A stretch of DNA of 64,000 nt from assembly GCA_036925085.1 (NCBI GenBank), contig JAUPFP010000001.1, positions 8,457,502 to 8,521,501 on the forward strand. The letters run 5' to 3'. Within the stretch, counting starts at the first letter, position 1, and every line of letters starts with the position of its first letter. This document shows positions 12,310 through 62,221 of the stretch, in pieces. The notes below the pieces were generated by a model. The model saw nothing but the letters and a program-made list of their open reading frames with translations, did not search any database and had not been told where the DNA came from. The position numbers and the translations under genes are program-made. This DNA comes from Brachycybe producta. Lineage: Eukaryota > Arthropoda > Diplopoda > Playtdesmida > Andrognathidae.

Positions 12310-15291
12310 CTATGGCACTGACTCATATATGTTAATATCGTCATTATCATTAAATTGGTTCGATTTTGCGTTACTCTCAGTCAACTTGGGACTCGGGATT
12401 TCCATATCATACAAGTCATTTTCAATCAATTCGAAATTTTCTCCGTCACTTTTTTTGGCAAAAGCGTCTTCATAAACTGCTTCTTCGTAAATCGTTTCCG
12501 ATAACAACTTCCTTTGAGGACTGAAATATATATATATATATATTAAATAAAGAAAATAAGTTCAAGGTTATGGATGAAGCCTAACATTATTTAAACAATT
12601 TAAAATTGATTCCATTATTAAAAATTATAGGATACCGTAGCCTTTTTCGGTAATAATAAAGAGCAATTCCAATTGTGGCCATTATCAAAGTGAACCCCAA
12701 AATGTAACCAAAAGTTAATACTAGAATAAAAATACAAAAAAAAATGGTTATTAATTAGTCAATTTTTTATGAATTTTTTTTTTTCAATTAGGAACCGCAG
12801 AGCCTCAATGTACAAGCTTTTAGAATTGAAACAAACGCCAACTAAATAAGCGCCAAATTGAACAAGCGCCAAATTGAACAAATACCAAGCTGAACAACCA
12901 CTAAACTGAACAAATGCCAAACTGAATAAGTGCCAAGTTGAACCAGCGCCAAGTTGAACCAGCGCCAAGTTGAACCAGCGCCAAATTGAACAAGCGCCAA
13001 GTTGAACCAGCGCCAAATTGAACAAGCGCCAAATTGAACAAATATCAAACTGAACAACCACTAAACAAATGATAAATTGAACAAGCTACCAAACTAAACA
13101 AGCGTTAAGTTGAACAAGCGCCAAACTAAATAACCGTTAAGTTGAACAAGCGCCAAACTAAATAACCGTTAAGTTGAACAAGCGCCAAACTAAATAAGCG
13201 TTAAGTTGAACAAGCGCCAAACTAAATAAGCGTTAAGTTGAACAAGCGCCAAACTAAATAAGCGTTAAGTTGAACAAGCGCCAAACTAAATAAGCGTTAA
13301 GTTGAACAAGCGCCAAACTAAATAAGCGTTAAGTTGAACAAGCGCCAAACTAAATAAGCGTTAAGTTGAACAAGCGCCAAACTAAATAAGCGTTAAGTTG
13401 AACAAGCGCCAAACTAAATAAGCGTTAAGTTGAACAAGCGCCAAACTAAATAAGCGTTAAGTTGAACAAGCGCCAAACTAAATAAGCGTTAAGTTGAACA
13501 AGCGCCAAACTAAATAAGCGTTAAGTTGAACAAGCGCCAAACTAAATAAGCGTTAAGTTGAACAAGCGCCAAACTAAATAAGCGTTAAGTTGAACAAGCG
13601 CCAAACTAAATAAGCGTTAAGTTGAACAAGTGCCAAATTGAACAAACACCAAACTAAATAAGCGCCAAATTGACCAAGTGCCAAACTGAACAAACACCAA
13701 ACTGAATAACCAATAAACCGAACAAGCCCCAGTTCGAACAAACGCCAAGCCGAATAATAAGCACCAAAAGCTTCCCCTCCACGGCTTTAGCGTGGAGGCT
13801 AGTGGCTCCTAATCGAAATAACATACGATTTTTGTTGTTGTTGTTTACTTATGATGCACTGATTCGATTTGCAACTTCCATCAAATAATTCCCTTTTGAT
13901 GGAATTTACATCGTCATGATGGTCGCAAACATTCGTTAAACTGCGTGACAGATGCGCGATATCAGTTTCTTTCGCAAATTTTCTCAGGTTACATTGGAGA
14001 AGCGTCACTTTTTCACTTTGGTCACCTTTTGGATAGTGACAGTAACCTGTTGTCCACTCGAACCATTCTTCTAGATCTACAATTATGAGAAAAAATATTA
14101 TATATATATTAAGCCAATTCTGTGTGTGTGTAACATCGGAATTTATATAAATTTGAATAAATGAACCGCTTTTTTCTCAAGGTCAACTATATGTTGCACA
14201 CTCCCCATCCAAGAACCCCATTGATATTAAATTGGAGAGGGGAAAAGGTTTGGAAAGTGTAGAGTGGGGATAGAGAGAAACGTGGAGGGAGGAAAAAAAG
14301 AGGGAAGGGTTGACTGAAATTGAAATGAAAGGAGTAAAAAAGAAAAAAACGACGCGCATGCGCACACCAGAAAAAATGAAAAACTCATTTTCTCTTTCAA
14401 ATATAAAAAGGGGAGGGGATAATAGTAGCAAAATTAAACCAGAGTTTATCACAGGCAATTGTGCCCAGCATCAGAATTTCTTTTGCTCAGCCCTTTTATG
14501 AACGTCATCAATTTCTAATTGGATTTGTTACTTAATTGGTCTGACGGCATAAAAGGGCGGAGGAAAAGAAATTCTAATGCTGGGCACAATTGCCTGTGAA
14601 TTTTGCTCCCATCATTTATGACGGGTTACCCCACTAGTTAATAATAAAGATATCTTATATATGTACAGTGGCGCCCGCAGGATAATTTCATAGGGGTGGG
14701 GGGCGATTCACAGCACTGCTGCGTGTGTATAAGGCGCTCTTGTGCAAACTCTCAAAGGCGCCCTCGACAAGAAAAAGGGGGACTTCTGAAACCAATTGAG
14801 CTCTCCTGAGGCATTTTTAGAGCTTTTAGAGCATTTAAATATTTTTCGACTTTTGGCCGTTTTCTGAAAAAAAAAGCCAACCATTATAGTCTTGGATTTT
14901 GATCCATTTTTTCGAATTTAAAAAATTCTTGAATCCTTGTGCTTTTCTAAGCTTTTTGGGACTTCTGAAACCAGTTGAGCGCTCCTGAAGCATTTTTAGA
15001 GCTTTTAGAGCATTTAAATATTTTTCGACCTTTGGCCGTTTTTTTTTTAAAAAAAACCATTTTTTCGAATTTTAAAAATTCTTGAATCCTCATGCTTTAA
15101 AAGCTTTTTGAAAAATGGCTTTGGAAAAGAGAGGCGGGGGGGGGGGCGACCGCCACCTCCTTGTCCCTATGCGCGGGCACCCATGCTTATTATATAACTT
15201 ATATGTGACAATAAGTACCTTTAGCATGATGGACATCGATTAAGACAAAACACAATAATACAATCCATTGTAGTAATAATTTCGTACACAT
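12310..15291 (-). CDS. Unrecognised single-pass membrane protein, 198 residues, 4 exons
   Basis: Exons on the minus strand: 15291-15219, 14076-13849, 12720-12636 and 12520-12310. All junctions are GT-AG and phases agree (1,1 / 1,1 / 2,2), giving 597 bases. Exon 1 is a signal peptide (MCTKLLL start, hydrophobic core, Asp-Val-His-His-Ala end). Exon 2 is a short ectodomain with five cysteines. Exon 3 encodes a membrane helix (about residues 102-122) followed by the stop-transfer YYYRKRLR. Exon 4 is an acidic cytoplasmic tail with four tyrosines (140, 145, 166, 194), each followed by an acidic residue: IYEEA, VYEDA, LYDME, IYESV. This pattern suggests kinase substrates or SH2 docking sites, which is an inference. 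I do not recognise the family. The introns hold a minisatellite and a MITE. Confidence 0.7.
12832..13768. repeat. 16/32-bp minisatellite in an intron
   Basis: Units of the type caagcgccaaattgaa (about 16 bases) are degenerate at both edges. Between about 13105 and 13640 they are replaced by about 16 nearly identical 32-base dimers: gcgccaaactaaataagcgt then taagttgaacaa. The array lies inside intron 2 (13848-12721) of the membrane-protein gene. Confidence 0.9.
14100..14210. repeat. Dispersed repeat shared with 62566-62720 in opposite orientation
   Basis: A (TA)n run, then catcggaatttatataaatt, tgaataaatgaaccgctttt and ctcaaggtcaactatatgtt, ending near gcacactc. The reverse complement occurs at 62566-62650, also beside a (TA)n tract. 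Probably a transposon end of unknown class, in intron 1 of the membrane-protein gene. Confidence 0.75.
14450..14598. mobile_element. Short palindromic MITE, 149 bp
   Basis: The left arm cacaggcaattgtgcccagc continues through atcagaatttc to the inner ccttttatg. The right arm is its complement, ending gctgggcacaattgcctgtg. The arms are about 50 bases each with few mismatches. No clear target duplication. It lies in intron 1 of the membrane-protein gene. Confidence 0.85.
14781..15120. repeat. Tandem duplication, about 179-bp unit
   Basis: Two head-to-tail copies begin with gacttctgaaacca at 14781 and 14960 and share gagcatttaaatatttttcg and the later gaatcct. The second copy lacks an internal segment present in the first. 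Non-coding, in intron 1 of the membrane-protein gene. Confidence 0.8.
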
Positions 15292-15895: not shown

Positions 15896-16000
15896 ACTTG
15901 TTTTCAGTTCATTAATAATTTAATATTATTTCATTTATTTGTATCTTCTTAATGAATTAGTAATATAGGGTTTTTATATGAAGGATTCGAGAACCTTTTA

Positions 16001-16326
16001 GGATTCGGACTCGGTTTCGAGAAAATTTAGGATTCGGACTCGGTTTCGAGAAAATTTAGGATTCGGACTCGGTTTCGAGAAAATTTAGGATTCGGACTCG
16101 GTTTCGAGAAAATTTAGGATTCGGACTCGGTTTCGAGAAAATTTAGGATTCGGACTCGGTTTCGAGAAAATTTAGGATTCGGACTCGGTTTCGAGAAAAT
16201 TTAGGATTCGGACTCGGTTTCGAGAAAATTTAGGATTCGGACTCGGTTTCGAGAAAATTTAGGATTCGGACTCGGTTTCGAGAAAATTTAGGATTCGGAC
16301 TCGGTTTCGAGAAAATTTAGGATTCG
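16001..16326. repeat. 29-bp tandem array, about 11 copies
   Basis: Nearly identical repeats of ggattcggactcggtttcga followed by gaaaattta. The homogeneity implies recent amplification. It sits just beyond the repeat at 15640-15895, suggesting it arose inside the same element. Confidence 0.95.
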
Positions 16327-34190: not shown

Positions 34191-37100
34191 ATGACACCTG
34201 TGGCACTTCTACTCTTCTTGTGCTTTGCTGGTGTTTCTCATTTAGGTAAGTGCAATATTGCAATTTACAATTTTAATATATTACTTTATTATCCATTAAT
34301 TGCCACTGCGAAAATTAATTTAATTCGGTTCAGGTAGAATGTTGCATTGCCAAACACATACATGTATTGCTATGAAAGTTGCGAGCAATTTGCAAAAAAA
34401 TTAAATTAATTTTGAACGAAAAATTATTTATTTTTTTGATTTGCTCCAAAGAAAACTTGAAAATGTAAAACTTTAAATAAAAAAAAAATGAAAAGTAGCT
34501 CACATTAAAATGTAGGCAAACAAGTTTATTTTTTTTGGAACTTCCGGGGTCACCACGAAACAAATACTTCTTCTAGAATTGACATAGAAAAAGCGTACAC
34601 AAAAATGATTGTCCCCTCAGGTAGAATGTCTAGAGTAATGGTTCCCAAACTTACTTTTATAACGGCACGGTATTTGTGTTGCCTGCAGAAATTGCGGCAC
34701 ACCTAGTAAAACGCACAGTGCACTTAGCAATATGCATGGCACACTTAGCAAAACTCATGGCACACTATAGTGGCACCTTTGGGAAACATGCACACTGATC
34801 TAGAGAAATGACAAAAAAAGAATAAATGGCCCAGGATAATGCAAAGTGACATAAAACACCTAAATCTTGCAATTAAATCAATTGTGGCGAATAGGCACCT
34901 ACAATATTTGTTGAGTGACCACCTAAAAAGATATATTCTTTAAAATTATCTCTCAGGTTTTTGGATTTTTTTTTTAAATTTTTCATTAAAATTTCCATTT
35001 TAAAATTGCTAGTCCAAGTTTTTTTTTCTGGGAAGTTTAGAAATGTAGAACAATGCAGTTGGCGTTTTTTTTTCCTTCTTCTACCCACTTGTTTGAGGTG
35101 CCACCCAGAAAAGTTGCGTCTACTGACTGGGTCAATATGAACAAGTTTTGTAGATATCAAACACCAATGAAATCATTTTTTGAAAATATCCCTCAATTTT
35201 ATATGCATATTTTCATAAAAAAAAGGTGTTCGTCAAAAAAAAAAAAAAACGTCACGACCCAATGCTATTGTTATTATTCGGGTTGTGTTCAGTGGTGTAA
35301 AGCCTTCTAGCTTCTAGGTGTGCCACTTTGGGGGGGGGGGGAGGAGGAAACCGACTACCCAATTTCTCCCCAATTCGTCTCCCCGTCCTTGGCACAGTTT
35401 TAAATTTTATTCATTTTAGCAAAATTACAGACACACAATATATTCATATAATTTAATAATTAAAATTTCAAAGTGTGGAGTGCGACGCTTTTGCGGGAGA
35501 AACGTCAGGATGCGAACGGAATCAATGATCAAGACCTTTGCGATGGAAGACAAGCGGGAGAATATTTCCGTCTGACCGGAGACGACGACTGTCGCGATGT
35601 CGTTCGTTGTTCCGTTCAAGGTCTATTGGCTTTGAGGTGTCCTTCTGGACTTGCATTTGACATTGACAAACAGACATGTACCTGGAAGGACCACGTCAGC
35701 AATTGCGAACTTCTAGACAGTAAGCAAACCGATCTATCATATCCAAGTATATCTTATTAATCCGTCCACCTTTTTGTGAAACAGAACCGAAGAAGGCTCA
35801 GCCTTTGCTTGTTACGGACGAGCCTTTGTGTCCTGAAGGTAAACTTTCTTGTGGAAATGGCGAATGCGTCAATAAGGAGTTATTCTGCGATGGCAAACCA
35901 GATTGTCCGGATGAATCCGATGAAGGAGCATGCAGTGAGTATAATGGCGGCCACCTTGCGACACCTGCAGACACCACAGTCGCCGCATTTACCAATCCAT
36001 CTCTTTTTCTGTTTTCAGATGTGGATCAGGATCCGAACCGCAGTCCTCCTTGCGATCTCAGCGTTTGCATTTTGCCCGACTGTTTCTGCAGTTTCGACGG
36101 CACTCGTATTCCCGGCGATCTCGATCCGATAACGGTTCCACAGATGGTGACCATCACTTTTGACGACGCCGTCAACATCGACAACATGGACCTTTACGAT
36201 GACATATTTCATCCAGACAGAAAAAACCCCAACGGATGTGGCATCAAAGGGACTTTCTTCGTTTCTCACAAGTACACTAATTACAGTGCCGTCCAGGAAC
36301 TCCACAGAAGAGGCCACGAAATTGCGGCTCATTCCATCACGTAACAGTTCTTCCAAAGATGTCATCATATCTAACAAAATAAATTAAATTGTGCTCCTAT
36401 TTCTTTTAATTAGTCACAAGAACGATGAAAAATTCTGGACAGAAGCGTCCGTAGAAGAATACGTTCAAGAGTTTGCCGGTAACCGTTTAATTATCGAGAG
36501 ATTCGCTAACATAACGGACAGTTCGGTAATCGGACTGAGATCACCCTACTTGAGAACGGGAGGCAACAACCAGTTCACTATGATGGAAGAGCAGGGATTC
36601 CTTTACGATTCGACAATTACGGCACCCTTGAGTAACCCACCTCTGTGGCCGTATACTCTGTACTTCCGAATGCCTCACAAGTGTCACGGTAACGGGCACG
36701 CATGTCCCAGTCAGTCTCACGCCGTCTGGGAAATGGTGATGAACGAAATGGATCGTCGTGATGATCCCACTTTCGACGAGGATCTTCCCGGCTGTGCCAT
36801 GGTCGATTCCTGCAGCAATATCAATCAACCGGATCAGTTTTACAATTTCCTGAATCATAATTTCAATCGCCATTACAACAGTAATCGAGCTCCATTCGGA
36901 CTTTATTTTCACGCTTCTTTTCTCAAGAAGAATAACGAATTCCGAAAGACTTTCATCAAGTGGATCGGCGAAACTCTGACCAAAGGAGACGTTTATTTTG
37001 TGAGCATGACCCAAGTGATTCAGTGGATGCAAGAACCGCAGAGTGTCGAGGTCATCAAGGAATTCGAGTCGTGGAAGGACCGTTGCGACGTGAAGGGGGT

Positions 37101-37406: not shown

Positions 37407-38159
37407 CAAACGATTTGCTTTTTGTTGTTGTTTGTTTGTTTGTAAAATCTATTTCATTTAAATATTACAGTTCTTTTAGATGAAATTTTCTGAATTGTCT
37501 TAATATTAAATGTGAAGTTTTATCATTTTTGAAATTTATTCTTAAGGTCAATTACATCTAGTTCTGGTCAGTTTATTTCATATTTTTTTTATCCAAACTG
37601 TGGGAAGTCTTTATCAAATCTGACTTTTGTCTGCGAGGGGATTTAGCACTGTGTTTTTACAATTGTAGAAAATGTGTTCACATGCTGCTTTTTACTTTTG
37701 TTCCCCCCCCCCTCATTCTAGGCCTATAATACAGTATGATAAAAAATCTCCATTGTCCCCCACTATCAACATCAGTTTATAAATTGTTATTTAAATGGTA
37801 AGTCTATATGTTTTTCATGGAAAATATGTTGCATATTATGCAGATATGACAAAATCTTATTTTTTGCAATTTATTTTCTATTCAGAAATAGTATAGTTGA
37901 AGAAATGCAAAAAATACAGATTGTAGAAATGTGCTGTTATTGCAGAACACCCTATTTAATGGACCACATTTAAAATTGAATAACTTTGAAATCAAATATC
38001 TAACTCCAGGCTTAAAATTATTTTTTCTGTTACAGTGTTTATTGGGAACATTTTGCATTCAAGAAATTTCTTGTCGCTCTTCCCGTTCAAGTCTACTGAA
38101 TTTCCGAACTTGTGATTCCATAAACCAAAAAACTTTGTAATTCCCGCCTCAAATACAAG
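37407..38159. other. No gene seen
   Basis: AT-rich 3' flank of the chitin deacetylase gene, with a C-run near 37705. No exon or element is recognisable. Confidence 0.5.
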
Positions 38160-38559
38160 AAAGAGATTTCAAATGACGTCTTATTATGACGTCATACATG
38201 TAACTGAAGGCGTTATTATTTTAACCAATGAGAAACAACCACACTAAAGGTGGTAAATAAATAAAACAAGAACAAATATGGCGCCTCCACTCAAAGTTCT
38301 GTCACGAGAGAGACGAAAAGCAACCGGAAATGGATAAATCAAGAGCGTCAAAACCGGAAGTGACGTCCTCTAAGATGGACGAGCAATACTTCGAAATTGC
38401 CACCAGATGGCGTATGCAGACGTCCAATAATTTGAAATTGCCACCAGATGGCGAATGCAGACGTCTAATAATTTGAAATTTCCCACCATTATGCTTTAGC
38501 CAAGATGACATGTTTATTGTGTCTTGTTTCTGGATAAAAATTTATATTTTTGTGAAAAA
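38160..38559 (+). promoter_or_regulatory. Housekeeping-type promoter with CRE, ETS and CTCF-like motifs
   Basis: Contains a perfect CRE, tgacgtca (38187-38194), and an ETS plus half-CRE composite, accggaagtgacgtc (38353-38367). There are YY1-like AAGATGG/ATATGGCG sites and two copies of ccaccagatggcg (38400-38412 and 38441-38453) within a 41-bp direct repeat. The motifs match the CTCF core CCASYAGRKGGC. No TATA box. It directly precedes the ATG at 38560. Confidence 0.5.
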
Positions 38560-41185
38560 ATGGTTAAACTTCGAGGAAGAACAACTTATAATTCTACATT
38601 ACAACCTCCCAAGAAAAAGGCCAAAACTGTTAACACAGGCAAGAATTTATTCATAACAAGAGTTAAAAAATGTGCATATATTTTTTTTAACTTGAAATTA
38701 TAGATCAAGAAACAAACGACGCTTTGCAGCAAAATGAAAACATATATGAAAATCAAATCAATGTTATACATCTAGAAAGTGATGAACATCCCATAATTAC
38801 ATGCGCGACTGATGAGCCTGTAACCAATGAAAATGAGGAAGTTGACAAACGACCACAAAGACACAGCACAATGACGTCCGTTGGACATCCAATGGGTTTA
38901 GTCAATGGATTATCATGATATCCAGTGGACCTCCATGAATATCCCAATTGCCTTTATTAGATGTCCTGTGGATGTCCGTATGTCCCACCTATGGATGTAG
39001 ATAGAACATCCATTATGGATGACTGTGGATATCCAGTGTGCATGCCATGGATGTAGGTAGAACATCCATCATGCATGACTGTGGATATTCAGTGTGCATG
39101 TTATGGATCTCTAAAGAATTTCTCCCAGAACATTGTTATTACATCCAGAAGATGCACAATGGATGTCCAAGGCTTCATGTAGAGCAGTGTTTCTGAAACT
39201 GTGGTCTGTGGCCCTCCAGTGGACCATGAGGTTCCTTCGGGTGGGCTGCAAACAAATCCAAAAAATGATCAATGTAAGTTGATCAATTTTTGGATTCTTC
39301 TGCAGCCGAATAAATATATTCATTGTGAGTGTAAATTGTCAATGACAAAACATTTGATACATGAATTTCACACTATAGTAAAATTATTCACCTTATTATT
39401 CTTTTATTTTCATATAAGAGTAAGAGCATAGATAAGTAGTTACAACTTCCTACTAGGCAAGAAACAATTCTAGAGCACATGTATTAACATTCGTTATCAC
39501 TTGTGTTCATTCATTCAGTAATTATTTTTCCTTGTTTCACATTCAAATCTTAAGTGCCAGTTAGTTTACTGTAACTTGCAAAAGGTTTAATGTCATGATT
39601 AATTTATGAACAAAAAAATTCCAAACTCCTTATTCTGCATTTCAGGATTAACACTATAAAAAGAAATTGATATTATTTTAGAAAATAGAATTTTTGAGAC
39701 TAAGCTTAGTTTGTTAGCATTTATTTCAGATCATAATGTTATGAATCTTTATGATCTTAAATAATTGCTAACAGACCAAGCTTAGTCTAAAGTTCTATTT
39801 TCTAAATTAATATCAAATCTAAAAGAATATCAACATGAAAATATTGTCTGTTTAAAGTTAACATACAAACATATAAGCCAGATGTAAAAATCATTACCTT
39901 AAAATTGCTGTTAAGTGATTAAGATACCCCTTCTGGTTTCTAAAATAATTTCAAGCTTTTCTTAATTTTACTCCTGAAAGACTGAATAACCAGAGTTGGG
40001 TTTGGTGTTCACAATTTAAAAGAACAACAAAAGGGAGAAAAACTAGCTAGCATAAAGAACTGACAATGTTCCCTTGAACTTTTAGACCTTTAGCATAAAT
40101 AATATTCTGGGGAATTCAATTTTAAAAAATCGAATTTTAGTTTTCCTAAGTTCGATTTTTAAGATTTTCTACTGCCATTGGCCAAGCACATTGAGGTACC
40201 TGAATGTGCTTGGCCAATGTGTTTATAAATGCAATGAATTTAGTAATCATAGCACAATATGGGAAGCAAAGGACTTAATAAAGAAACTGAAATACAAATG
40301 AATAATGAATGTCAACTTACACATGAAATTAAAAGACTTTTTCCATGAACCATCAATATGTAAAACCATTTAAAATGCTTCTTTTTTAAAAGTTTGCAAA
40401 CTTTGAAGTCACTTCTGTGCTCTTTTAGCAAACATACACCCTTTTATGATCCAACATTCCATAAGCCTTACCCAAACCCTCATTGCTTTTCCAAAACAGG
40501 ATTATAGGGTAGTACAGGTGGTACTTTTGCCACCCACTTAATGAAAACTTCCTTTTACAATCCTATATTACCTTAGGCCTTAGTTTACCTTAGTCAACAT
40601 GTATATACACTATACTTGTATAAGCAGTTGCTATAGATATCCATAAGACATCTTGTGGATATCTTCTAAAATGAATATTTAATATCCAGAAGATGTCCTT
40701 TAGATATCATAACGATGTACACTTTTGATATTCACAGGATGTCCTGTGGACATGCTGTGGTATATACATAAAATTAGTGTAATATTTAAATCACTATGAT
40801 ATAAATAGTTAGATATTTTATTATAACCTTAAAATTCATTAATAATGATAAAATTAAGTAAAAAAATTTTAAAATTTGATTTTTTTTGATGACATCAGTG
40901 GGATGTCTTAAGGATGTCCAAATTATCCCAGGACGTCTTGGACTTATTGTGGACATAACAGGACGTCCTGTGGATATTTTGTGCTGTGTGGGCAGTGCCT
41001 CTGAACACAGTAAAGGTAGACCAAAATGTACACCTACAAAGTTGAATAACCAAATAAAAATGTACTGCAACCAAATATTTCGGGCGAAGAAAAAGATTCT
41101 ACAGCTTCAAAAACAAATGGCTACTGTCAAATTACAAGGATTAAAAAGACATTTTAAATTGGAGACTGCCAGGGCCGTGCTTTGA
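38560..41185 (+). CDS. Unrecognised coding gene split by a transposable element
   Basis: Exon 1 (38560-38638, 26 codons) encodes a basic start with PPKKKAK, a nuclear-localisation-like motif. It ends CACAG followed by gcaag, a GC-AG type donor. Exon 2 starts at 38704 in matching phase and encodes an acidic stretch (NENEEVD). That frame runs into an inverted-repeat element at 38864. Just beyond the element, at about 41000-41185, an open stretch reads GRPKCTPTK then a lysine- and leucine-rich segment predicted as coiled coil, ending at a TGA at 41183-41185. The two parts may be one protein interrupted by the insertion, or the element may be intronic; no donor before it is convincing. A THAP-transposon-like or DNA-binding protein is possible, but I recognise no family. 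Confidence 0.4.
39667..39816. repeat. 150-bp palindromic element
   Basis: Arms ttgatattattttagaaaat...gactaagcttag and their complement ctaagcttagtc...ctaaattaatatcaa, about 45-50 bases each. Probably a MITE nested inside the 38864-40989 element. Confidence 0.8.
40176..40219. repeat. Near-perfect hairpin
   Basis: cattggccaagcacatt followed by gaggtacctg and the exact complement aatgtgcttggccaatg. The stem is 17 bp. Confidence 0.9.
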
Positions 41186-41616
41186 TACAAAGAGGCGGCC
41201 GCATCAGGTGGCACTGTAAGAGGGCAATCAAAATACAATTTGAACCATTCAATAATTAAAAATCTTTACGCAACGCTTTCCTATATCGGTCTGTTATTCC
41301 GATATTGATGTATAAGATTTATGATTTATCGCACGCCTTGGCGAGCACTCGCCGAAAGACTTTGGATCTGACAGCGCAAAGCTATTATTTTTGTTTGTAA
41401 CATACCACACGGCCACTCCTAAAAGCTGAGGCAGCAATTATCACAAAAGACAATTGCACGTGTTACGTGTTAATAGTTCTTTAAACTTACAATTATTGAC
41501 AATATTTGATTGTAATGTTAGTTTGTCTTGAGAAGGGCAAGCGGCCGTTCTGTGTTTAAATCAGGAAATCAGATATATAATATATCTGTATCAGTATAAT
41601 ATTTTTGCATTTATAC
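41186..41616. other. No gene seen
   Basis: Unique-looking sequence after the stop at 41185. No recognisable exon, RNA gene or element ends. Confidence 0.4.
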
Positions 41617-42127
41617 TGCGACGGACCTTTTTCCACGGGTAAAATCTGCGCGTTTCAAAACTAATCCAATGCGAAAAGAATAACAAGAATAAGTAAAGAT
41701 GGAAGTTTTATTCCAAGTAAAAATGAAAATGCGAACTGGTATTAAAATCACAACACAAAAAATAAATAATAACTTTGAGAAATTAAATTGAAGAACCTAG
41801 CCAAAATTGGGCATAGGTTGGGTGTTTAGAAAATTGGCCCCAAACAGAAAAATACAACTCTTTATATACCCTGAGAATCCAGAAGTCGGATTCTCATGGC
41901 ACAAACTTCTGATTGGTTAAATTAAGCTTTTTGGCTCGAATAGACCCATCAATGGATCGGACTATTTGGCCAAAATCCCTGACTCATCTTCTGTTATCAC
42001 ACTTATGTGATAACAGAAGAAAACAAACAAAGCAATTAAAAATTAACAAACCCACTCATGTGGAAAAAAGGGGAAATGTGTGATGACCCTATCATTTTCC
42101 CTTAGCAACAGTGCCCGTGATGTCACA
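41617..42127 (-). mobile_element. Candidate solo LTR
   Basis: On the minus strand it starts TGTGACATCACGG (42127), has TATATAAAG at 41860-41868 and AATAAA at 41707-41712, and could end GTCCGTCGCA at 41617. The TG...CA ends and the U3-R-U5 order fit an LTR. There is no matching target duplication and no second copy in the window, so the boundaries are provisional. Confidence 0.4.
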
Positions 42128-42990
42128 CCCTGACGTCATTGCCTCTGTTCTCTCCTCTCGTTAGCCTCTTAGTTCTTGGAAATAAGAATGAATGTTTGTA
42201 CGTGATGTTGCAACGCTATGGCTGCTTAAGGGTTAAACAGGTTTTATAGAAGCATGTTCTTTTGAGGCAGTTCTTTTTACCGCCAATTAAAACTGAACAC
42301 TTCACACTTTAATTATTTACTTTTCCAATTAAAATTCTCTTTTTGTTTCTAACTCTCTTGTATTTTCGAATATTTTATTAATATTGCATAGCCCAACATT
42401 GGAACATTGGCCCAATGTTGAGCATAGCAATTGAGTATTTTTAATGTCTTTTCTGTGGTTACAATAGAGTAACATTGGGACCCAGAATTCATTATTCATT
42501 TGCATACTGTGTAATGATTGGCCAATGTATATCACATGACCTATGCTTACATGTGTATATAAGTTGGGCTCTCATAAAATTTGGGTTCCAAGTTGTTCTG
42601 TTTCTGATATAGTTTCAGCCGGAAGCTATGCCCGGTTGAGTGTCTGCTCTGTTTCCGCTTGTCAACTGGAGGTGGACTGCCCGGTTGAATTCTGGTCTGC
42701 ACTCTGTTATAGGTGACCAGAAGCTATGAGCCTGGTTACACCTGGGTTTTGATCCCTGAGGGTCGTCAGAGGAAGGCAACTGCCAGGAAGATGCAGTGGA
42801 GCCACTGATTAGGGATCATCAGACCGACAGTTGGATGCAACAGACAGCATGGAAACAAAGTGATGGAACCAACAACGTCACGATTCATGATCGATTAGAA
42901 TAGTAGAATCATACTCAGATCCAACTTGTATTAATAATTGGCTGTATTGTGGAAACTCCACATAAGGTCTGTAAATAAAGATAACAGTAA
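42128..42990. other. No gene seen
   Basis: Contains imperfect repeats of tgcccggttga and ggaagctatg at 42620-42740, and short frames without recognisable domains. Nothing supportable as a gene. Confidence 0.4.
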
Positions 42991-42992
42991 CA

Positions 42993-43435
42993 CGTGGGTT
43001 AGGGTGTCCCAAAAAATCTTCTAAAACATTTCTCCCTTGTGAAATAATAATACCTGTAAAATTCCAGCTCATTTGAGCTATATTTAGAGGTCCCCCAATG
43101 GCTCACAAATCTATATGGCTATTACCATAGTTTTTTTTATATTACAAATGACAAATTTAAATTTAAAATAGAAATATTCACAAAAACTTATGCATTATTT
43201 AATTTTACAACATATTACTTATATCAAGTGTATAATGTATTGAAATTAAAATAATAATTTTGAAAAAAATAACCATACCAACTTGGAGACCCTTGGGGGA
43301 CCTCTAAATATTGTTCAAATTATCAGAAATTTTAATAATGTTACTATCTATAAATAAACTTTTCAGTGGGTATGCATTCACAGATTCTTAATTTTAATTT
43401 TCGACATTTTTAGGACACGCTAACGTGGGTTTGTC
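42993..43435. mobile_element. Mariner-like MITE candidate
   Basis: Ends carry gttagggtgtcccaaaaaat and, inverted, the complement of attttaggacacgctaac. Inner inverted repeats are exact: tatttagaggtcccccaa (about 43080) and ttgggggacctctaaata (about 43292). GGGTGTCCCAAAA-type ends are common in Tc1/mariner elements. No transposase is present. Confidence 0.55.
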
Positions 43436-43484
43436 ATTCTTTCAATAAGCCATATAGTAGGTCAATGCCACTGGTTGAACGTGT

Positions 43485-43785
43485 AGGTAATTTGCATAGG
43501 CTGCGCTGAAAAAGAATAGTCGACAGCCGGTTCTCCATCCCCTAGAGAAACTAGAGGACTACCTTGTAGTGTAGGGGTAGCTTTGGTAAGGGGCCCACCT
43601 GAGGTTATACAAATACATGTACCAATCACCTGCAACATTGTCTCCTATTTTCTAGCAGACGACACTTCGGCCGGTATTGGAAGTAAAAGCTGTCTGGAAA
43701 ATCGTCAGCTTTCCAATAGCAGACGACACTTTGGGCAACATTACACGATAAAATGAGGTGGAAGTGCGGGGTATGCAAATTACCT
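43485..43785. mobile_element. MITE candidate, about 300 bp
   Basis: Inverted ends aggtaatttgcata (43485-43498) and tatgcaaattacct (43772-43785), extending as imperfect arms. Inside is a direct repeat, tagcagacgacactt, at about 43658 and 43720. Confidence 0.5.
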
Positions 43786-44280
43786 GGAATTGGAAAGTTT
43801 GTTTGATTGGTGTTTGCCTACATTGTTACCGCGAAATTTAAAAATTCGGCTAAAGGTTAAAAGTCCGCGAAATTTTAATTTGGAATCAGTTTGAAAAAAT
43901 GTATCAATACGTGAATTCTACATTTTGGAAGTTTTAACCTTTGAATTGGAAGTGCTTCGCAAATCAGCTGGATCTGTAAGATTCCAGATCCAATCTTGCA
44001 TTTGATGGAGATCTGAGTTTTACTTGGAATTTAGAAATTTACACTTGAAAAAGGTGCATCGAAATTTGAATACTATAAATGGTGAGTTTCGATTTTTGTT
44101 TTCGAACCATTTTTGCCGCAAAATTTAAAATTCTTCTGCTTTATGGATAAAAGTTAATAATGTCAATAAATGTTGGATCGTCACATTAATTTTGAATTTG
44201 TTGAATCGACACGTGAATTTCGAGTTTTTAAAGTATTAACATTACGAGTTTGAGTGAAAATACAAAGTTGTTGTGAAGTA

Positions 44281-44440
44281 CACCGTGGGAAACGGACTTT
44301 TGTCCGTTATACCGCGGTAGAAACCGGTAAGGTCAAACTATGACCGTTCCTCACCGTGGGACACGAACTTTTGTCCGTGATACCACGGTTTTGCACGGTT
44401 CCATCCGTACGGTATTTTACGGACTTTTGTCCGTGAATTT
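44281..44440 (+). repeat. Triplicated hairpin in the retroelement leader
   Basis: The palindrome acggacttttgtccgt occurs at 44292-44307 and 44419-44434, with a near copy cacgaacttttgtccgtg at 44362-44379. They are embedded in repeats of caccgtggga and taccgcggt/taccacggt. They lie just ahead of the gag start. Confidence 0.75.
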
Positions 44441-44511
44441 ACCGTTTTCGACGGTGGAAACCCGCTATCTGGTGGCTTTGTCCAGATTTTACGGTTCATT
44501 TACGGTGAAAA

Positions 44512-45867
44512 ATGGAGCCAGCCCCAAAAGTACCGACGGAAGGTAGGGAAATTGGTGCGGATGCGGGTTTGGAGTTACGCAGCCGCGTAGTCGACCGTCC
44601 CCTTGGGATGCCGAAGGCGGAGTCCCCCTGGAGACAGGCGGCAAGGCGGTAGCGTGGACGGGAATTTCCCGGATGAATGGGTCACTGTGCGGAAACACCG
44701 CAGTGACATTCTCTTGGGAGAATACCCGTTAGAAGACAGTGGATCCGATGGTGATCTCATTGGGGAGGACGATCGGCCATGGCCGAATGTCCAAGTTTTC
44801 ACCGTTGCCTGTCCGGTTGGGCATGGGTTAGTGCCGCTGCTTGGACGCCTGCTCCAGCGGTTCCAGTGGAGGTTCAGGCGTTCGGGTTCTTTAACCCGGT
44901 CCACTCATTTGCTCGTTACGACGGTAGAGGACTTGGCGCCTTTTCTCCGCAAGTTCGAAGCGAAAGCCCGAGCTCAGCGCTGGACAGATGAGTCCTGTTG
45001 CAGTTTCTTTACGTTTCTGCTGGACGGTCCGGCGGAAGAGTACTACGCCACTTTGGTGGAAACTCTTCCTGACGTGACCTGGACTGAGCTGAAGGACGCT
45101 ATGCGTAGCCGCTTCAGCACAAGTAACCAGGATCGCCTCTGTTTCGGCGAATATGAGTCGATGAAACGGGGCTACCGAGTCTGTGCAGGCATTCTACTGG
45201 CGGTTCTTGGAACTGTCTGACCGAGAGCTGTCAGCTCATACGCTTCAAACGGAAACTCCTGGCGGCCATCACTGATCAATTGATCGGTTGTAAGGCCGGT
45301 ATGGTAGAAGCATATGCCAGAAAGGCACGGCTGGTGGAAGCCGACTTGCTTCTAACAGGTAAATTACCTAACCGTACTAGAGGGGTTCCTCAGGACAGGG
45401 CTAGCGCTCAGTCCTCGGGAACCACGGCTAGCTCTGGGAGCTCTGCCAAGGCTTCCTCTCCAAACCAAACAGGTGCGAAGGCTGCTGCACCGTCCAAGTA
45501 GGACAAAGCAGGAGCCAAGACCGGAGGCAAGAAGAGGAAGACGGCAGGCTCTGGTGGAGGTCAGCTGGCGGCAACGCCTCGAAGTACGGACTGTACAGGA
45601 GACTCACTCAGGCGACTAGGTCCTTGCTACGGGTGTAACCAGATGGGTCACCTGAAGAAGGATTGTCCGAAGGCTTCGGCCAAAAGACAGGTTGCCGGGG
45701 TGATGCCTGGCGAAAGCCAGAAGCTCCAGCCAACCACTGGCATTGCGCCGGTTTGGCTGGAGGGTTGTAAGTACCTGGCCACCATTCATGATGGCCAGTT
45801 CTACTATCGACTCGTGGAGGACGAAGAGAAATCTTCGGGAAACCGCCGCCGGTCGCCACCGAACTGA
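44512..45867 (+). pseudogene. Gag of gypsy-type element 1
   Basis: Starts at ATG 44512, then shifts frame twice. The capsid-like part around 44960-45180 has the retrotransposon gag signature: LLDGPAEEYYATL, then TWTELKDAMRSRFS. A later frame (from about 45240) continues RKLLAAITDQLIGC into a low-complexity Ser/Ala/Lys stretch with a TAG at 45499-45501. It ends with the nucleic-acid-binding knuckle CYGCNQMGHLKKDC (45625-45666). Capsid assembly and RNA packaging would be its role; frameshifts and the stop make it a pseudogene. Confidence 0.8.
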
Positions 45868-45932
45868 GTGGTGGGCGACCGGTTAAGCTTCAAAGCTCAG
45901 GTGCCTGTCAGGGCCTGGGTTCTGAGCGAGGG

Positions 45933-47580
45933 ATGTACCTCCGGGTGGTCTCCAAATATGTGGATGTCCTGCGTAAGGCAGGGGTGCCTCTGGCGAGGTC
46001 TGCGGACCCGGAAATTACCCAGTGGGTATTTCCATCGCCATGCTCCACATTGGAGGCCGTGTTCAGCCAGCTGGATCGCTGGTTTGCCCCCTCACCCTAC
46101 ATGCCTAGTGGTGAGGTGCTGGATCGTGCGCTCATCGAGCAGGCGGGAGGAGTTGGTGCGCCCATACCTCCTGCTGTGCCTGGGAAGTCTCTGGTTTCTG
46201 AGACAGTGTCCCAGCCTTCTGCACGTCTGGGATTACCGTCCGGTGTGGACGGTAAGGTGGACGGGATGCAGAAGGTCGATGGTGGGAACCCGCGGGTTCC
46301 CATTCCTGAGCTTCAGAGCCGGGCCTACGATGTAGGTTCACCACGGGTGTGGGTGTCGATTGGCAATCGTTTCTTGGAGATGATCGTAGACACCGGGGCC
46401 GACGTGTCGGTCTTAAGCATTGCGGTGGCACGAGTGATGGAGTTGCCTATAGAGGAACTAGCAGTTCCTTCATTCCTTCTTGGAATGGGTGGGCACTCCA
46501 TCGAGGTAGTAGGGGTCACAAATGTGGAATTGACCATCCACAAGAAAACCATCAAGGTGCCTCTCATTTTGGTGAAGGGAGTTGGGCGTTGATCGTGCAC
46601 CGGAAGGTTTACTTCCGGGAGAATGTCTGGACAGCACATCCGGACGTCCTCCAAGCTGCATTCACCGATCAAGCACTTGAAGAACCTAGGGAGGTGGAAG
46701 CAATTCCACCGCCGATACCAGGGGCTTTGCCTCCGGGACGGCAACTCCCAGTGGTTCCGCCTGCACTCGAGAAGGTCGACGGGTGGGTGAACATTGTTTC
46801 ACCAGAGCTGCCCGAGACCAGAACCTCTATTGGGCATGGAGAAGTTTGTTCTCTGCGACTGAGGAAGAATGTCTGGCTACCAGCCCACGTACGACGTGTC
46901 GTATCTGTGATGCTGGTAGAGCATGCCGGCCCTGGCCAGCTGCTTCTCGTGGAGCTGCACCGGAAAGCCTTAGGTGGACGTGGTGTGTTAGCCGTGGCAG
47001 GTATTGCCGCAGCTAACTGGCTTGGCATGTATGATATCTGGCTTGAAAACGTGGGAAATGCACCTATTGCCCTGGAAACAGGAGAGGGTGTAGCCACGGC
47101 TCAAGCTGTGGAGGCTGCCATCGTGGTAGGGCTGGAAGAGCCCTCTAAGTTGAGAAGGAGAGACCCCACTCAGGTGACGGTTCGACCAGGGGAGGCCTCG
47201 TCTAAGTTGAGAGGGGCGTCCGGAGACGGACGCCAAGTGCTCAATGTGACGACAGCTCCAACTCTCGAAGAGTGTCTTAAGATTGGGCCCAATCTGAAGC
47301 CTGAAGAGGCGAGACAGCTTCGGGAGTTCCTGCTGGCATGCCGGGATCATTTCGCGTTCGACTTTACAGAGTTGGGTGAAACCTCTCTGGTCGAACATAC
47401 GATCGATACCGGTGGGCAACCTCCAGTGCAAGAAGGATTGCATCGAACCGCTCCAGCGGCCAGAGCAGTCGAGAAAGAAGAGGTGGCGAAGATGTTGGAT
47501 GCAGGGGTTATCCAACCTTCGCATAGTCCCTACGCGAGCCCTATCTTGCTTGTTCGCAAGAAGGATGGTGGCCCCCCACG
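45933..47580 (+). pseudogene. Protease and start of reverse transcriptase, gypsy-type element 1
   Basis: The retropepsin active site VDTGADVSVL (Asp codon at 46389) lies in one frame that stops at 46592. A +2 frame takes over from about 46349 and continues to the pre-RT region FAFDFTELGE and then SPYASPILLVRKKDGG, the entry to the reverse transcriptase palm. The sequence then breaks off at about 47575, before the YxDD box. The polymerase core and most of RNase H are absent. Confidence 0.8.
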
Positions 47581-47585
47581 CTCTT

Positions 47586-48927
47586 TGCTATCTGCAGACA
47601 ACCAAAAACCTGCAAGGCAGGTTGGGGCATTGGCAGATGCAGCTACAAGAGTACCGGTTTAAGGTTCAGTATAGGAAGGGGACACTGCACGTGGATGCCG
47701 ACGCTTTAAGTCAGTATCTTGTTCGTGATGTGGCGGACCTTTCCTTGCCTGAATTCGTCAAAGCCGATGTAGGTGAGGTAATTTACCATATCCGTTCCGA
47801 GGTAGATTGGGTCAAGGAGCAAGAGGCCGATGGCTGGTGCTCCAAGGTGAAGAGTGAAATCTTCCGTGACCCCAACTCGAACCTCCGGTTCAAGTTTGTG
47901 GTGGCAGATGACTTCTTGTTTGCCATCAGGTCCATCCAGGATCGGTTGAGAACTGTACTGGTAGTTCCGAAGTCATGCAGGGCTTTCTGTCTAAGGAAGC
48001 TATATGACGTTCCCGAAGCTGGTCACATCGGGATGTTTAAGACCTACCAGAGACTGCGCTCACGCTTCTACTGGATCGGTATGAAGCGGGACATGGCCGA
48101 ATATGTTAAGTCATGTTTGGTGTGTCAAAGAGCGCGACAGTTCGCTCGAAGTCAGGGATTTCTCCAACCGATTGTGCCGGAGTACCCAGTTGATACCTGG
48201 GGAATGGACTTCGTTGGACAGTTTCCTGCCTCCGTGGGTGGAGTCACCTATGTGCTTATCATGGTTGACTATTTCACCCGGTATGGTGTGGCAAGGGCGG
48301 TACGAAGGGCCACGGCCGCCTGTGTTGTGAAGTTAATGAAGGACGAGATCCTTTCGGTGTATGGCACGCCGAAAGGTCTTGTCTCGGACTGTGGGTCCCA
48401 GTTCTCCAGCAAAGTCCTGCTGAAGTTCCGGCCGCGCTATAACATAGCGCATCACTTCACGACGGCGTACCATCCGCAAGCTAATGGGTTTACGGAGCAT
48501 ACGAACAAAACCGTAATGGAAACCATCAAGCGGTACCTTCATCCCCTTAAGGAACAGCGTGACTGGTGGGATAAATTACGGCCCGCCGTGTGGGCTTATA
48601 ACACAGCTGTCCAGGAGAGTACACAGGTCTCTCCGTATCAGTTGTTGTTTGGCCGTGAGCCTCGGATGGAGATTGATAACCTCCTTCTGAACGGTCCAGT
48701 CCGCGACTTGCCTGACCAGCAAGCCGTGGAAGAGCAGGCTCGTCAACGTTTGACGGCTGCTCAACGAAGGCAAAAAGAGCGGTATGACGCTGGCCGTGTG
48801 GAGCCTCCTCTGTATTAGCCTGGATTAGAGACCAGGCTGGGAAGCTCAGCCAGGCGAAGAAATGGAGCTTGGCTTATAAAGCTGAGAGGTGTACGGTGGT
48901 CGTGCGGTATTCTGACCTAGTCTACGA
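47586..48927 (+). pseudogene. RNase H tail and integrase of gypsy-type element 1
   Basis: Begins with the end of RNase H (YRKGTLHVDADALSQ). The zinc-binding domain has GH and CLVC, but its first zinc His is replaced by Tyr (LYDVPEAGH). The catalytic core is complete: Asp in WGMDFVGQF, Asp in VSDCGSQF and Glu in GFTEHTN, spaced as DX35E. An in-frame TAG follows at 48816-48818. The C-terminal domain resumes in another frame from about 48869, reading YSDLVYEIGTGR up to the repeat array. Integrase inserts element cDNA into the host genome. Confidence 0.85.
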
Positions 48928-48929
48928 GA

Positions 48930-51900
48930 TAGGAACCGGAAGGGAGGGACCGGACGGAAGGGAGGGAGGGACCGGACGGAAGGGAGGGAGGGAGGGACCG
49001 GACGGAAGGGAGGGAGGGAGGGACCGGACGGAAGGGAGGGAGGGAGGGACCGGACGGACGGGAGGGAGGGAGGGACCGGACGGACGGGAGGGAGGGAGGG
49101 ACCGGACGGACGGACGGGAGGGAGGGAGGGACCGGACGGACGGACGGACGGACGGGAGGGACCGGACGGACGGACGGACGGACGGGAGGGACCGGACGGA
49201 CGGACGGACGGACGGGAGGGACCGGACGGACGGACGGACGGACGGGAGGGACCGGACGGACGGACGGACGGACGGGAGGGAGGGAGGGACCGGACGGACG
49301 GACGGACGGACGGGAGGGAGGGAGGGACCGGACGGACGGACGGACGGACGGGAGGGAGGGAGGGACCGGACGGACGGACGGGCGGGAGGGAGGGACCGGA
49401 CGGACGGACGGGCGGGAGGGAGGGACCGGACGGACGGACGGGAGGGAGGGAGGGACCGGACGGACGGACAAGAGGGAGGGAGGGACCGGACGGACGGACG
49501 GGAGGGAGGGAGGGACCGGACGGACGGACGGGAGGGAGGGAGGGACCGGACGGACGGACGGGAGGGAGGGAGGGACCGGACGGACGGACGGGAGGGAGGG
49601 AGGGACCGGACGGACGGACGGGAGGGAGGGAGGGACCGGACGGACGGACGGGAGGGAGGGAGGGACCGGACGGACGGACGGGAGGGAGGGAGGGACCGGA
49701 CGGACGGACGGGAGGGAGGGAGGGACCGGACGGACGGACGGGAGGGAGGGAGGGACCGGACGGACGGACGGGAGGGAGGGAGGGACCGGACGGACGGACG
49801 GGAGGGAGGGAGGGACCGGACGGACGGACGGGAGGGAGGGAGGGACCGGACGGACGGGAGGGAGGGAGGGAGGGACCGGACGGACGGACGGGAGGGAGGG
49901 AGGGACCGGACGGACGGACGGACGGGAGGGAGGGAGGGACCGGACGGACGGACGGGAGGGAGGGAGGGACCGGACGGACGGACGGGAGGGAGGGAGGGAC
50001 CGGACGGACGGACGGGAGGGAGGGAGGGACCGGACGGACGGACGGGAGGGAGGGAGGGACCGGACGGACGGACGGAAGGGAGGGAGGGACCGGACGGACG
50101 GACGGAAGGGAGGGAGGGACCGGACGGACGGACGGAAGGGAGGGAGGGACCGGACGGACGGACGGAAGGGAGGGAGGGACCGGACGGACGGACGGAAGGG
50201 AGGGAGGGACCGGACGGACGGACGGAAGGGAGGGAGGGACCGGACGGACGGACGGAAGGGAGGGAGGGACCGGACGGACGGACGGAAGGGAGGGAGGGAC
50301 CGGACGGACGGACGGAAGGGAGGGAGGGACCGGACGGACGGACGGAAGGGAGGGAGGGACCGGACGGACGGACGGAAGGGAGGGAGGGACCGGACGGACG
50401 GACGGAAGGGAGGGAGGGACCGGACGGACGGACGGGAGGGCGGGAGGGACCGGACGGACGGACGGAAGGGAGGGAGGGACCGGACGGACGGACGGAAGGG
50501 CGGGAGGGACCGGACGGACGGACGGAAGGGCGGGAGGGACCGGACGGACGGACGGAAGGGCGGGAGGGACCGGACGGACGGACGGAAGGGCGGGAGGGAC
50601 CGGACGGACGGACGGAAGGGCGGGAGGGACCGGACGGACGGACGGAAGGGCGGGAGGGACCGGACGGACGGACGGAAGGGCGGGAGGGACCGGACGGACG
50701 GAAGGGCGGGAGGGACCGGACGGACGGAAGGGCGGGAGGGACCGGACGGACGGAAGGGCGGGAGGGACCGGACGGACGGAAGGGCGGGAGGGACCGGACG
50801 GACGGAAGGGCGGGAGGGACCGGACGGACGGAAGGGCGGGAGGGACCGGACGGACGGAAGGGCGGGAGGGACCGGACGGACGGAAGGGCGGGAGGGACCG
50901 GACGGACGGAAGGGCGGGAGGGACCGGACGGACGGAAGGGCGGGAGGGACCGGACGGACGGAAGGGCGGGAGGGACCGGACGGACGGAAGGGCGGAAGGA
51001 ACCGGACGGACGGAAGGGCGGAAGGAACCGGACGGACGGAAGGGCGGAAGGAACCGGACGGACGGAAGGGCGGAAGGAACCGGACGGACGGAAGGGCGGA
51101 AGGAACCGGACGGACGGAAGGGCGGAAGGAACCGGACGGACGGAAGGGCGGAAGGAACCGGACGGACGGAAGGGCGGAAGGAACCGGACGGACGGAAGGG
51201 CGGAAGGAACCGGACGGACGGAAGGGCGGAAGGAACCGGACGGACGGAAGGGCGGAAGGAACCGGACGGACGGAAGGGCGGGAGGAACCGGACGGACGGA
51301 AGGGCGGGAGGAACCGGACGGACGGAAGGGCGGGAGGAACCGGACGGACAAAAGGGCGGGAGGAACCGGACGGACGGAAGGGCGGGAGGAACCGGACGGA
51401 CGGAAGGAAGGGAGGAACCGGACGGACGGAAGGAAGGGAGGAACCGGACGGACGGAAGGGCGGGAGGAACCGGACGGACGGAAGGGCGGGAGGAACCGGA
51501 CGGACGGAAGGGCGGGAGGAACCGGACGGACGGAAGGGCGGGAGGAACCGGACGGACGGAAGGAAGGGAGGAACCGGACGGACGGAAGGGCGGGAGGAAC
51601 CGGACGGACGGAAGGGCGGGAGGAACCGGACGGACGGAAGGGCGGGAGGAACCGGACGGACGGAAGGGCGGGAGGAACCGGACGGACGGAAGGGCGGAAG
51701 GAACCGGACGGACGGAAGGGCGGAAGGAACCGGACGGACGGAAGGGCGGAAGGAACCGGACGGACGGAAGGGCGGAAGGAACCGGACGGACGGAAGGGCG
51801 GAAGGAACCGGACGGACGGAAGGGCGGAAGGAACCGGACGGACGGAAGGGCGGAAGGAACCGGACGGACGGAAGGGCGGAAGGAACCGGACGGACGGAAG

Positions 51901-52465
51901 GGCGGAAGGAACCGGACGGACGGAAGGGCGGAAGGAACCGGACGGACGGAAGGGCGGAAGGAACCGGACGGACGGAAGGAAGGAAGGAACCGGACGGACG
52001 GAAGGGCGGAAGGAACCGGACGGACGGAAGGAAGGAAGGAACCGGACGGACGGAAGGAATGAAGGAACCGGACGGAAGGGCGGAAGGAACCGGGCGGAAG
52101 GAACCGGGAGGAAGGAACCGGGAGGAAGGAACCGGGAGGAAGGAACCGGGAGGAAGGAACCGGACGGGCGGAAGGAACCGGACGGGCGGAAGGAACCGGG
52201 AGGAAGGAACCGGGAGGAAGGAACCGGACGGACGGAAGGAACCGGGAGGAAGGAACCGGGAGGAAGGAACCGGGAGGAAGGAACCGGAAGGAAGGAACCG
52301 GAAGGAAGGAACCGGAAGGAAGGAACCGGAAGGAAGGAACCGGAAGGAAGGAACCGGGAGGAAGGAACCGGGAGGAAGGAACCGGAAGGAAGGAACCGGA
52401 AGGAAGGAACCGGGAGGAAGGAACCGGGAGGAAGGAACCGGAAGGAAGGAACCGGAAGGAAGGTG
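48930..52465 (+). repeat. 3.5 kb G-rich minisatellite inside integrase coding sequence
   Basis: Tandem units change along the array: mixed units to about 49420, 30-bp units (ggagggagggagggaccgga plus cggacggacg) to about 50700, 26-bp units (gaagggcgggagggaccgga plus cggacg, then aaggaacc variants) to about 52060, and 14-bp units (ggaaccggaaggaa and ggaaccgggaggaa) to 52465. I find only one T on the plus strand, at 52060. No T means no stop codon on either strand, so the 1259-codon plus-strand frame and the similar minus-strand frames are unavoidable. The array lies between YEIGTGR and RKVCDRCHVDNLKPY of the integrase C-terminal domain and preserves frame. Confidence 0.95.
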
Positions 52466-52648
52466 TGCGACCGGTGTCACGTAGATAACCTGAAGCCGTA
52501 CATACCCACCTGCACTGTGAGACAGGAAGATAGACTTGGTGTCACCGTCAAGAGAAGCTCCGCACCGGCACCACCCAAGGGGTCCACCATGGGAGAGGTG
52601 GCTGCGGGTACGGTCCCGTCCTTGTCGTCGGAGCTCTGTTACCGGTAA
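52466..52648 (+). pseudogene. End of integrase C-terminal domain, gypsy-type element 1
   Basis: Continues in the same frame as the segment left of the array: VCDRCHVDNLKPY, matching the HVDxLKPY ending of gypsy-type integrase C-terminal domains, then about 40 residues to TAA. It shows the array sits inside one domain rather than between genes. Confidence 0.8.
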
Positions 52649-52803
52649 GTGGGAACATTTTAAAGTTTTCGTTTAACGCGCATTGTAACGGTCTGGCGGG
52701 ACGTTACAGACATCCATCTCACCTGGTACATGATGGTAGGGTGAGTTTAACGATTTAAATTACCTCACATGGTGCTATGAATATGGAGTAGGAGGTTTCC
52801 GCT

Positions 52804-60922: not shown

Positions 60923-62221
60923 ATGGAAACCCCCACCCCCAAGGGTACGTTACAAAATGGTGGAGATGCGGGGTATACTGCCAACACCAATGATCCTATA
61001 CCGGATAACGCAACTAGACAAGGAGTAGCGAGTGAAACAAGACAACGGACAGCATCGGCAAAGGAGACGACAGCGGAACAAGAGCATCAAAAGGCGGAGA
61101 ATCAATTAATCGAACTTCTCGAAAAAGGCCTGACATCCAAAACCAGACGGCAATAGATAATGACACTGCTGAGAGTCCAAGCTTCTACAGAGACGAAAAA
61201 GAAAGGGCGACCCATGAGTGTAGAGAGGACACCGACCTTCATGACAACGCAAGATCTGCCGCCACCACAACCGAAACTTGAACCAAAAATGGAACTACAA
61301 GCACCAACTATTGCCAAATTGGAGAAGTGATATGGCGGATGTCACCCACTGTACGGAGTACGAAAGTTCAACGGAACCGGGTCCATCCACCAGTACTTAG
61401 AATTATTTGAAGACATAGCAGACGTAGAGGAATGGAACGACGCCCATAGACACCACTACATGAGGTCCCGTCTAGAGGGTGAGGCACACGAATTTTACGC
61501 AAAATGTTTTCGAGAAGAGCACGCACGAACCTGGATTGAACTTAAGGCCGAACTTATAAGGGCTTTTGGACACCCAAATGAACTTGGCATGCTGAAAGAA
61601 GATATGGACAGCATGAAGCAAAACAAAGAATCGACTGCTACCTTCATCAGAAAATTAACGCGGCTAATTCAAAAAGTCATTCCAATGATGCCTGAGTTCC
61701 TACAGATTTCGCATATATTGAAAGCATTAGATCCAACAATACGTGAAGCACTACAGGCCACACCACTACATACGCTACGAGAATTCACTTTGTACGCAAC
61801 GGAAGTAGAAGGCATCTTGACTGGCCCAGGACTCTACAGACGACGCACTTCTTCAAAGGACAAGGTGGATAAAAAGTCCAAAAAGTAGAGGAAAAATCGA
61901 GTGGTGAACAGACGAGCCTATGCCGTGACCGCTTCAGACAATCAAGCAAACTCTAATAAGCATTACCAGAGTAAAGGTCAGAGTCAGAGCAACGGAGGCA
62001 AAGGTCAGAATGGACTCCATTCTGGTAACAGCAACAGCTACCAGAAGAATCAAAAGAAAGATGATGCTAGACCACCATGGCATCTGACTAAACTTAAATG
62101 TTTCCAATGTAATAAAATAGAACATATAGCACATCAATGCCCATCGTCTGCATCTGGTACTGGAAATCAGTCCAGAGTAGAAAAAGTCAAAGATAAAAAT
62201 GGCAAAGATTTCTACGTTTAA
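60923..62221 (+). pseudogene. Gag of gypsy-type element 3
   Basis: The N-terminal frame (from ATG 60923) is Lys/Glu/Thr-rich. The central capsid-like part (61345-61888) reads YMRSRLEGEAHEFYAKC, then TWIELKAELIRAFGHP, the retrotransposon gag pattern, and continues through a leucine-rich helical region. After a TAG at 61886-61888 comes a basic Gln/Ser/Asn-rich segment and the zinc knuckle CFQCNKIEHIAHQC (62099-62140), which lacks the usual Gly before His. Stops at 61154, 61328 and 61886 interrupt the frame; no protease or reverse transcriptase follows. Confidence 0.75.

Follow-up and report, generated by a model that had tools for sequence, protein, structure and literature searches.

A 3.5-kb minisatellite array probably born within one dead copy of a Ty3/gypsy-type retrotransposon

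Hypervariable GC-rich minisatellites consist of G-rich units, whereby neighbouring units are alike and variants lie in blocks. Minisatellites are also described from retrotransposons: in the portions available of the reports on soybean Gmr9/GmOgre (PMC3305785) and Lathyrus Ogre (PMC7004042), Ogre/Tat Ty3-gypsy elements of plants carry minisatellites past the end of the coding part and ahead of the 3′ LTR, and those of Lathyrus Ogre are occasionally expanded in length (PMC7004042). No description of an array inside the integrase coding region was found in the titles and abstract starts of a partly covered literature. Here we report an array at such a position in Brachycybe producta, in a stretch of 64,000 nucleotides that is referred to below as the window. 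The window sits in a 22-Mb contig, and the assembly searched comprised 295 Mb in 442 contigs.

For delimitation of the array, TRF output was combined with a comparison of copies of the surrounding element. By TRF, the array spans 48951-52447, with several rows of periods 26, 52, 60, 130 and 8 that overlap one another. The edges set by comparison with the other copies were wider, at 48933-52457 (plus strand), and the 3,525 bases between them comprised 1926 G, 970 A, 628 C and a single T, at 52060. Units were then obtained by cutting the array at each CCGG, which gave 138 complete units of the form CC(GGNN)n; this count omits the final CCGG piece, which enters the right flank, and the few bases preceding the first CCGG. 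All 138 complete units had a length of 4n+2, at 14, 18, 22, 26, 30, 34 or 38 bases. A GG start was seen in 807 of the 810 tetramers of these units, and those 807 were exclusively GGAC, GGGA, GGAA or GGGC. With variant units of 14-38 bp arranged head to tail, the array falls within the usual definition of a minisatellite (units of about 10-60 bp).

The units are also ordered along the array. Read from right to left, they form blocks of mostly 14-mers, then 26-mers, 30-mers and three 38-mers, with shorter units again at the left end. Neighbouring units were identical in 93 of 137 pairs, where shuffling of the order (1,000 shuffles) gave a mean of 11.3 and a maximum of 21. Similarly, the tetramer steps summed over neighbouring units came to 59, compared with a mean of 452.5 and a minimum of 386 in 1,000 shuffles. 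A block order of this kind is left behind when neighbouring units duplicate step by step, and together with the 4n+2 rule it can be explained by slippage at two scales; this two-level regularity is the sole slightly unusual part of the array. When 40-bp windows were scored for one dinucleotide held in 4-nt phase, only 1 of 349 scored in the array, and most of 13 other arrays from the genome scored higher. We attribute this low score to the 2-base shift in register that the CC of each unit introduces; within units, the 4-nt register was kept in 807 of 810 tetramers. The three off-pattern tetramers lie at 49470-49473 (AAGA), 51350-51353 (AAAA) and 52060-52063, the first two being GG to AA double changes, i.e. 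CC to TT on the other strand.

Hairpin formation was considered as a driver of the expansion and rejected. When four stretches of the array were folded as single-stranded DNA, using a model that leaves out G-quadruplexes, their stability was not clearly above that of shuffles (z = +1.35, +0.60, −1.11 and −1.26), with 178, 141, 34 and 22 of 200 shuffles, respectively, folding at least as well. A regular expression for four G3 runs matched 32 non-overlapping stretches in the array.

The element that surrounds the array was characterized by Pfam searches and by alignment with other copies. Upstream of the array, the matches follow the Ty3/gypsy-type order of gag-like, protease, integrase zinc-binding and integrase core domains. 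Homology to other members starts at 44275, and the left part of the broken element extends from there to 48932 on the plus strand. In the same orientation, this part contains a gag-like match at 45005-45136 (residues 139-182 of the frame 44591-45220), for which the Retrotrans_gag score of 23.4 bits is just below the Pfam cut-off of 24.1, an aspartyl protease match at 46353-46571 (residues 188-260 of the frame 45792-46592; Asp_protease_2 and gag-asp_proteas), and integrase H2C2 zinc-binding and rve core matches at 47964-48476 (residues 223-393 of the frame 47298-48818). No Pfam match to reverse transcriptase or RNase H was obtained before the integrase in the window frames scanned, and about 0.96 kb of pol that is present in other copies is missing there, at 47572/47576. 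The frame of the core closes with a stop codon at 48816-48818, just after which 13 bp present in seven other copies are deleted (the two together at 48816-48821, plus strand), and the core and C-terminal segments are therefore in different frames.

To the right of the array, what remains of the integrase C-terminal segment, KVCDRCHVDNLKPY onward, occupies 52458-52541 (plus strand). This integrase end abuts 170 bp at 52539-52708 (plus strand), which we infer to be the 3′ end of an LTR from the same or a related family, because in other loci it stands ahead of the leader; relative to locus L010, about 0.7 kb is absent at the 52541/52539 junction. This 170-bp end is all that the window copy retains of two LTRs: no 5′ LTR was found in 38001-44700 by comparison with six loci that have an LTR end, where L035 alone gave any matches, two short and weak ones of 31 and 23 bp. 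By descent, the window copy is a broken Ty3/gypsy-type member. A second Ty3-type gag lies downstream, at 61331-61888, where Ty3_capsid and Retrotrans_gag both exceed the cut-off.

Sequence divergence was compared over the integrase region. The window copy was 94.5-94.8% identical to the seven aligned copies, which were 95.5-98.3% identical among themselves. In the frame used, six of these seven contain no stops over this region, and the seventh (L007) loses the frame and shows 26. The count of private changes was confined to the 1,262 columns on which all seven other copies agree, where the window copy had 39 (3.1%), spread 14:9:16 over codon positions 1, 2 and 3. This spread is close to even and counts for a neutral expansion in a dead copy, the test being a weak one with 39 changes. 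For the six open-frame copies, the 29 private changes in total fell 5:9:15, which is only a moderate lean to third positions.

To establish the state of the site in other copies, the left flank was used as a search term. Of 1,062 candidates, 40 matches were scored, the window itself among them, and the remaining 39 were read together with L010 and L032 to give 41 sites. Between the homologues of window positions 48932 and 52458, 21 bases were found in 39 of the 41 sites, with 20 in L032 and 23 in L088. None of the sites read contained an array of any size; the earlier note's question whether other copies have shorter arrays is thereby answered in the negative for these 41 sites. A pattern for the uninterrupted site, applied genome-wide with up to 3 mismatches, gave 678 matches (331 forward and 347 reverse), a figure that may include some related families and misses copies whose divergence or truncation puts them beyond the pattern. 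The left junction pattern had one exact match in 295 Mb, at the window, and one further place with 3 mismatches; the right junction pattern likewise had one exact match in 295 Mb, at the window, and the four places with 3 mismatches show the uninterrupted form. Within this assembly, the array looks private to one copy.

At the protein level, the seven translated relatives have EFVDGYG between YEI and RKV and read YEIEFVDGYGRKV here, where the window copy reads YEIGTGR, the array and then GRKV. The claim that the two halves of the integrase C-terminal segment lie in one frame around 3.5 kb of tandem repeat was borne out, with the array at 48933-52457. Some 21 bases have thus given way to 3,525, which lengthens the copy by a net 3,504 bases (3 × 1,168) or 1,168 codons; the array is a replacement and not a simple insertion.

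CGGAAGG, into which the array runs at its right edge, stands in exact context in 39 of 41 relatives and occurs 114 times within the array, and GGAACCGGAAGG is present at both edges. With 3 off-pattern tetramers in 810, as against 39 private changes in 1,262 flank columns, the low off-pattern rate suggests an array younger than the insertion of the copy, although homogenisation could mimic youth. We consider it very probable that a neutral minisatellite without protein function arose locally in one dead copy of this high-copy Ty3/gypsy-type retrotransposon. A small rearrangement would have exchanged about 21 bases for a short duplication of the GGAACCGGAAGG type, with the resident CGGAAGG as its anchor; we infer this founding step, and the bases replaced held no full repeat unit. 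Strand slippage or unequal exchange would then have acted at two scales, that of one tetramer within a unit and that of whole units of 14-38 bp, and new variants would have spread to neighbouring units, leaving the block order. A point against this account is that the flanks keep their frame, as would happen by chance only one time in three. The suggestion of a neutral expansion in a dead copy, made before these comparisons, fits the tests, with the array found in this copy only and the copy broken in several places. The array is most likely an ordinary junk-DNA expansion, and the event is of a known sort in an uncommon place, namely the birth of a minisatellite within a dead copy of a transposon. 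As such, it would provide a clean case of a large tandem array born in a single dead copy, for which hundreds of uninterrupted sites serve as controls.

Local growth has to be weighed against the import of a ready-made array, copied from elsewhere during break repair with the 7-bp CGGAAGG as the right microhomology. The replacement of about 21 bases and the CGGAAGG common to the right array edge and the element would both fit such a patch, as would the other GG- or CC-rich tetranucleotide arrays present in the genome. A genome-wide search for a donor nevertheless returned only the window array when two unit patterns taken from separate parts of it were used, all 55 matches with up to 1 mismatch and all 23 with up to 2 mismatches falling inside it. 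When the whole array served as a DNA query, 16 other matches were obtained, at only 67-76% identity; because that search skips simple repeats, the absence of a donor is drawn from the two pattern searches. Edges were read for 13 of the 16 loci, and these are tetranucleotide-type or G- or C-rich arrays. The CC-marked unit (at least 3 GGNN tetramers followed by CCGG), sought on either strand, was found in none of the 16 similar loci, and in the window array it was counted 135 times. Neither the DNA search, the unit patterns nor the check for CC-marked units thus produced the separate satellite that had been envisaged as inserting here. A donor array could be unassembled, masked or lost, and a patch of this kind is judged improbable. 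An error of assembly, in which the flanks were misjoined across the repeat or the array length is wrong, gains something from the fact that tandem arrays are often mis-sized in assemblies. It is nonetheless very improbable, given that both flanks, within a contig of 22 Mb, belong to a single integrase segment whose two sides have the order, orientation and reading register to be expected, and that the unit blocks are ordered and not collapsed to one type.

The remaining alternative is an integrase variant in which translation of the array yields a low-complexity insert of about 1,170 codons. In its favour, YEIGTGR to the left of the array and RKVCDRCHVDNLKPY to its right share a frame, and an open stretch of 1,286 codons (48788-52648) links both C-terminal halves. 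Over the array, however, five of the six frames are open throughout, and the sixth (48916-52062) is cut at the single T. Because plus-strand stop codons need a T and minus-strand ones an A, to which a T on the plus strand corresponds, and there is one T in 3,525 bases, the frames of the array are nearly forced open on both strands. The open frame is a composition effect, and the register kept between the flanks is a 1-in-3 chance event, so that being in frame carries little weight; a T-free repeat always looks like a giant open reading frame, and an in-frame array is consequently no evidence of translation. Furthermore, no continuous frame leads from the integrase core through the array, as the core stops at 48816-48818 and the array frame differs, and no ATG occurs in the array frame before 52589. 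The loss of about 0.96 kb of pol, the failure to find a 5′ LTR and the lack of an array in all 41 relatives read point the same way. The translated insert of about 1,180 codons raised in the earlier note is left without support, and we regard translation as scarcely conceivable.

Beyond local, neutral growth in this copy, it was speculated that the genome has a recurrent process by which long arrays grow from seeds of a few bases, in strict 4-nt register and with a conserved GG (or CC). The window array would then be a young and unusually readable record, with two coupled slippage scales, the tetramer and the CC-marked unit, in the order of change. Lag-4 identity was 0.55-0.85 in 12 of the 13 other genome arrays tested and 0.37 in L046; since these arrays were picked by similarity to the window array, their 4-nt periodicity is no proof of a genome-wide process, and this broader reading is offered as a doubtful one. 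For comparison, lag-4 identity in four further window arrays was 0.13-0.56. At L044 (G000:C132, around 13375), a tetranucleotide-type array was noted by eye directly after the apparent 3′ end of an LTR from this or a related family, and the element there may have inserted at the edge of another array or may have seeded it.

The region covered by the window is rich in minisatellites. Further tandem arrays were placed by TRF at 5371-6327, 11910-12195, 12829-13748 and 15997-16326, with periods of 26/39, 10, 32 and 29, respectively, the last comprising 11.4 copies that match at 100%. Away from these arrays, neighbouring frames at 7387-9374 matched THAP, TNP-like GTP-binding and RNase H domains, with an RNase H N-terminal match just under the cut-off, and by these matches appear to represent a split P-element-type transposase. 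At 35724-36344, an LDL-receptor class A domain was found together with a polysaccharide deacetylase match just under the cut-off, as in animal chitin deacetylases; this is probably an exon of a host gene.

As in the plant Ogre/Tat elements, so far as the portions available of the two reports describe them (PMC3305785, PMC7004042), the window locus has its tandem repeats within a Ty3/gypsy element. In those portions, the plant arrays are downstream of the coding region and common to many elements, whereas the window array lies in former integrase coding sequence of a dead copy, and none of the 41 relatives read has an array at this site. For tandem repeats derived from transposable elements in human, in Drosophila (Tetris) and in maize centromeric retrotransposons, it is reportedly parts of the element itself that are repeated. 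The present case resembles these, in what is available of their descriptions (PMC3389668, PMC4079207 and PMC3648361, respectively), in that an element hosts repeat growth. It departs from them in that the window unit resembles its element only in the short CGGAAGG. With the hypervariable GC-rich minisatellites, the array, as read from a single assembly, shares G-rich units of 14-38 bp, like neighbours and variant blocks; unlike theirs, each of its units is a run of GG-anchored tetramers, hence the 4n+2 lengths.
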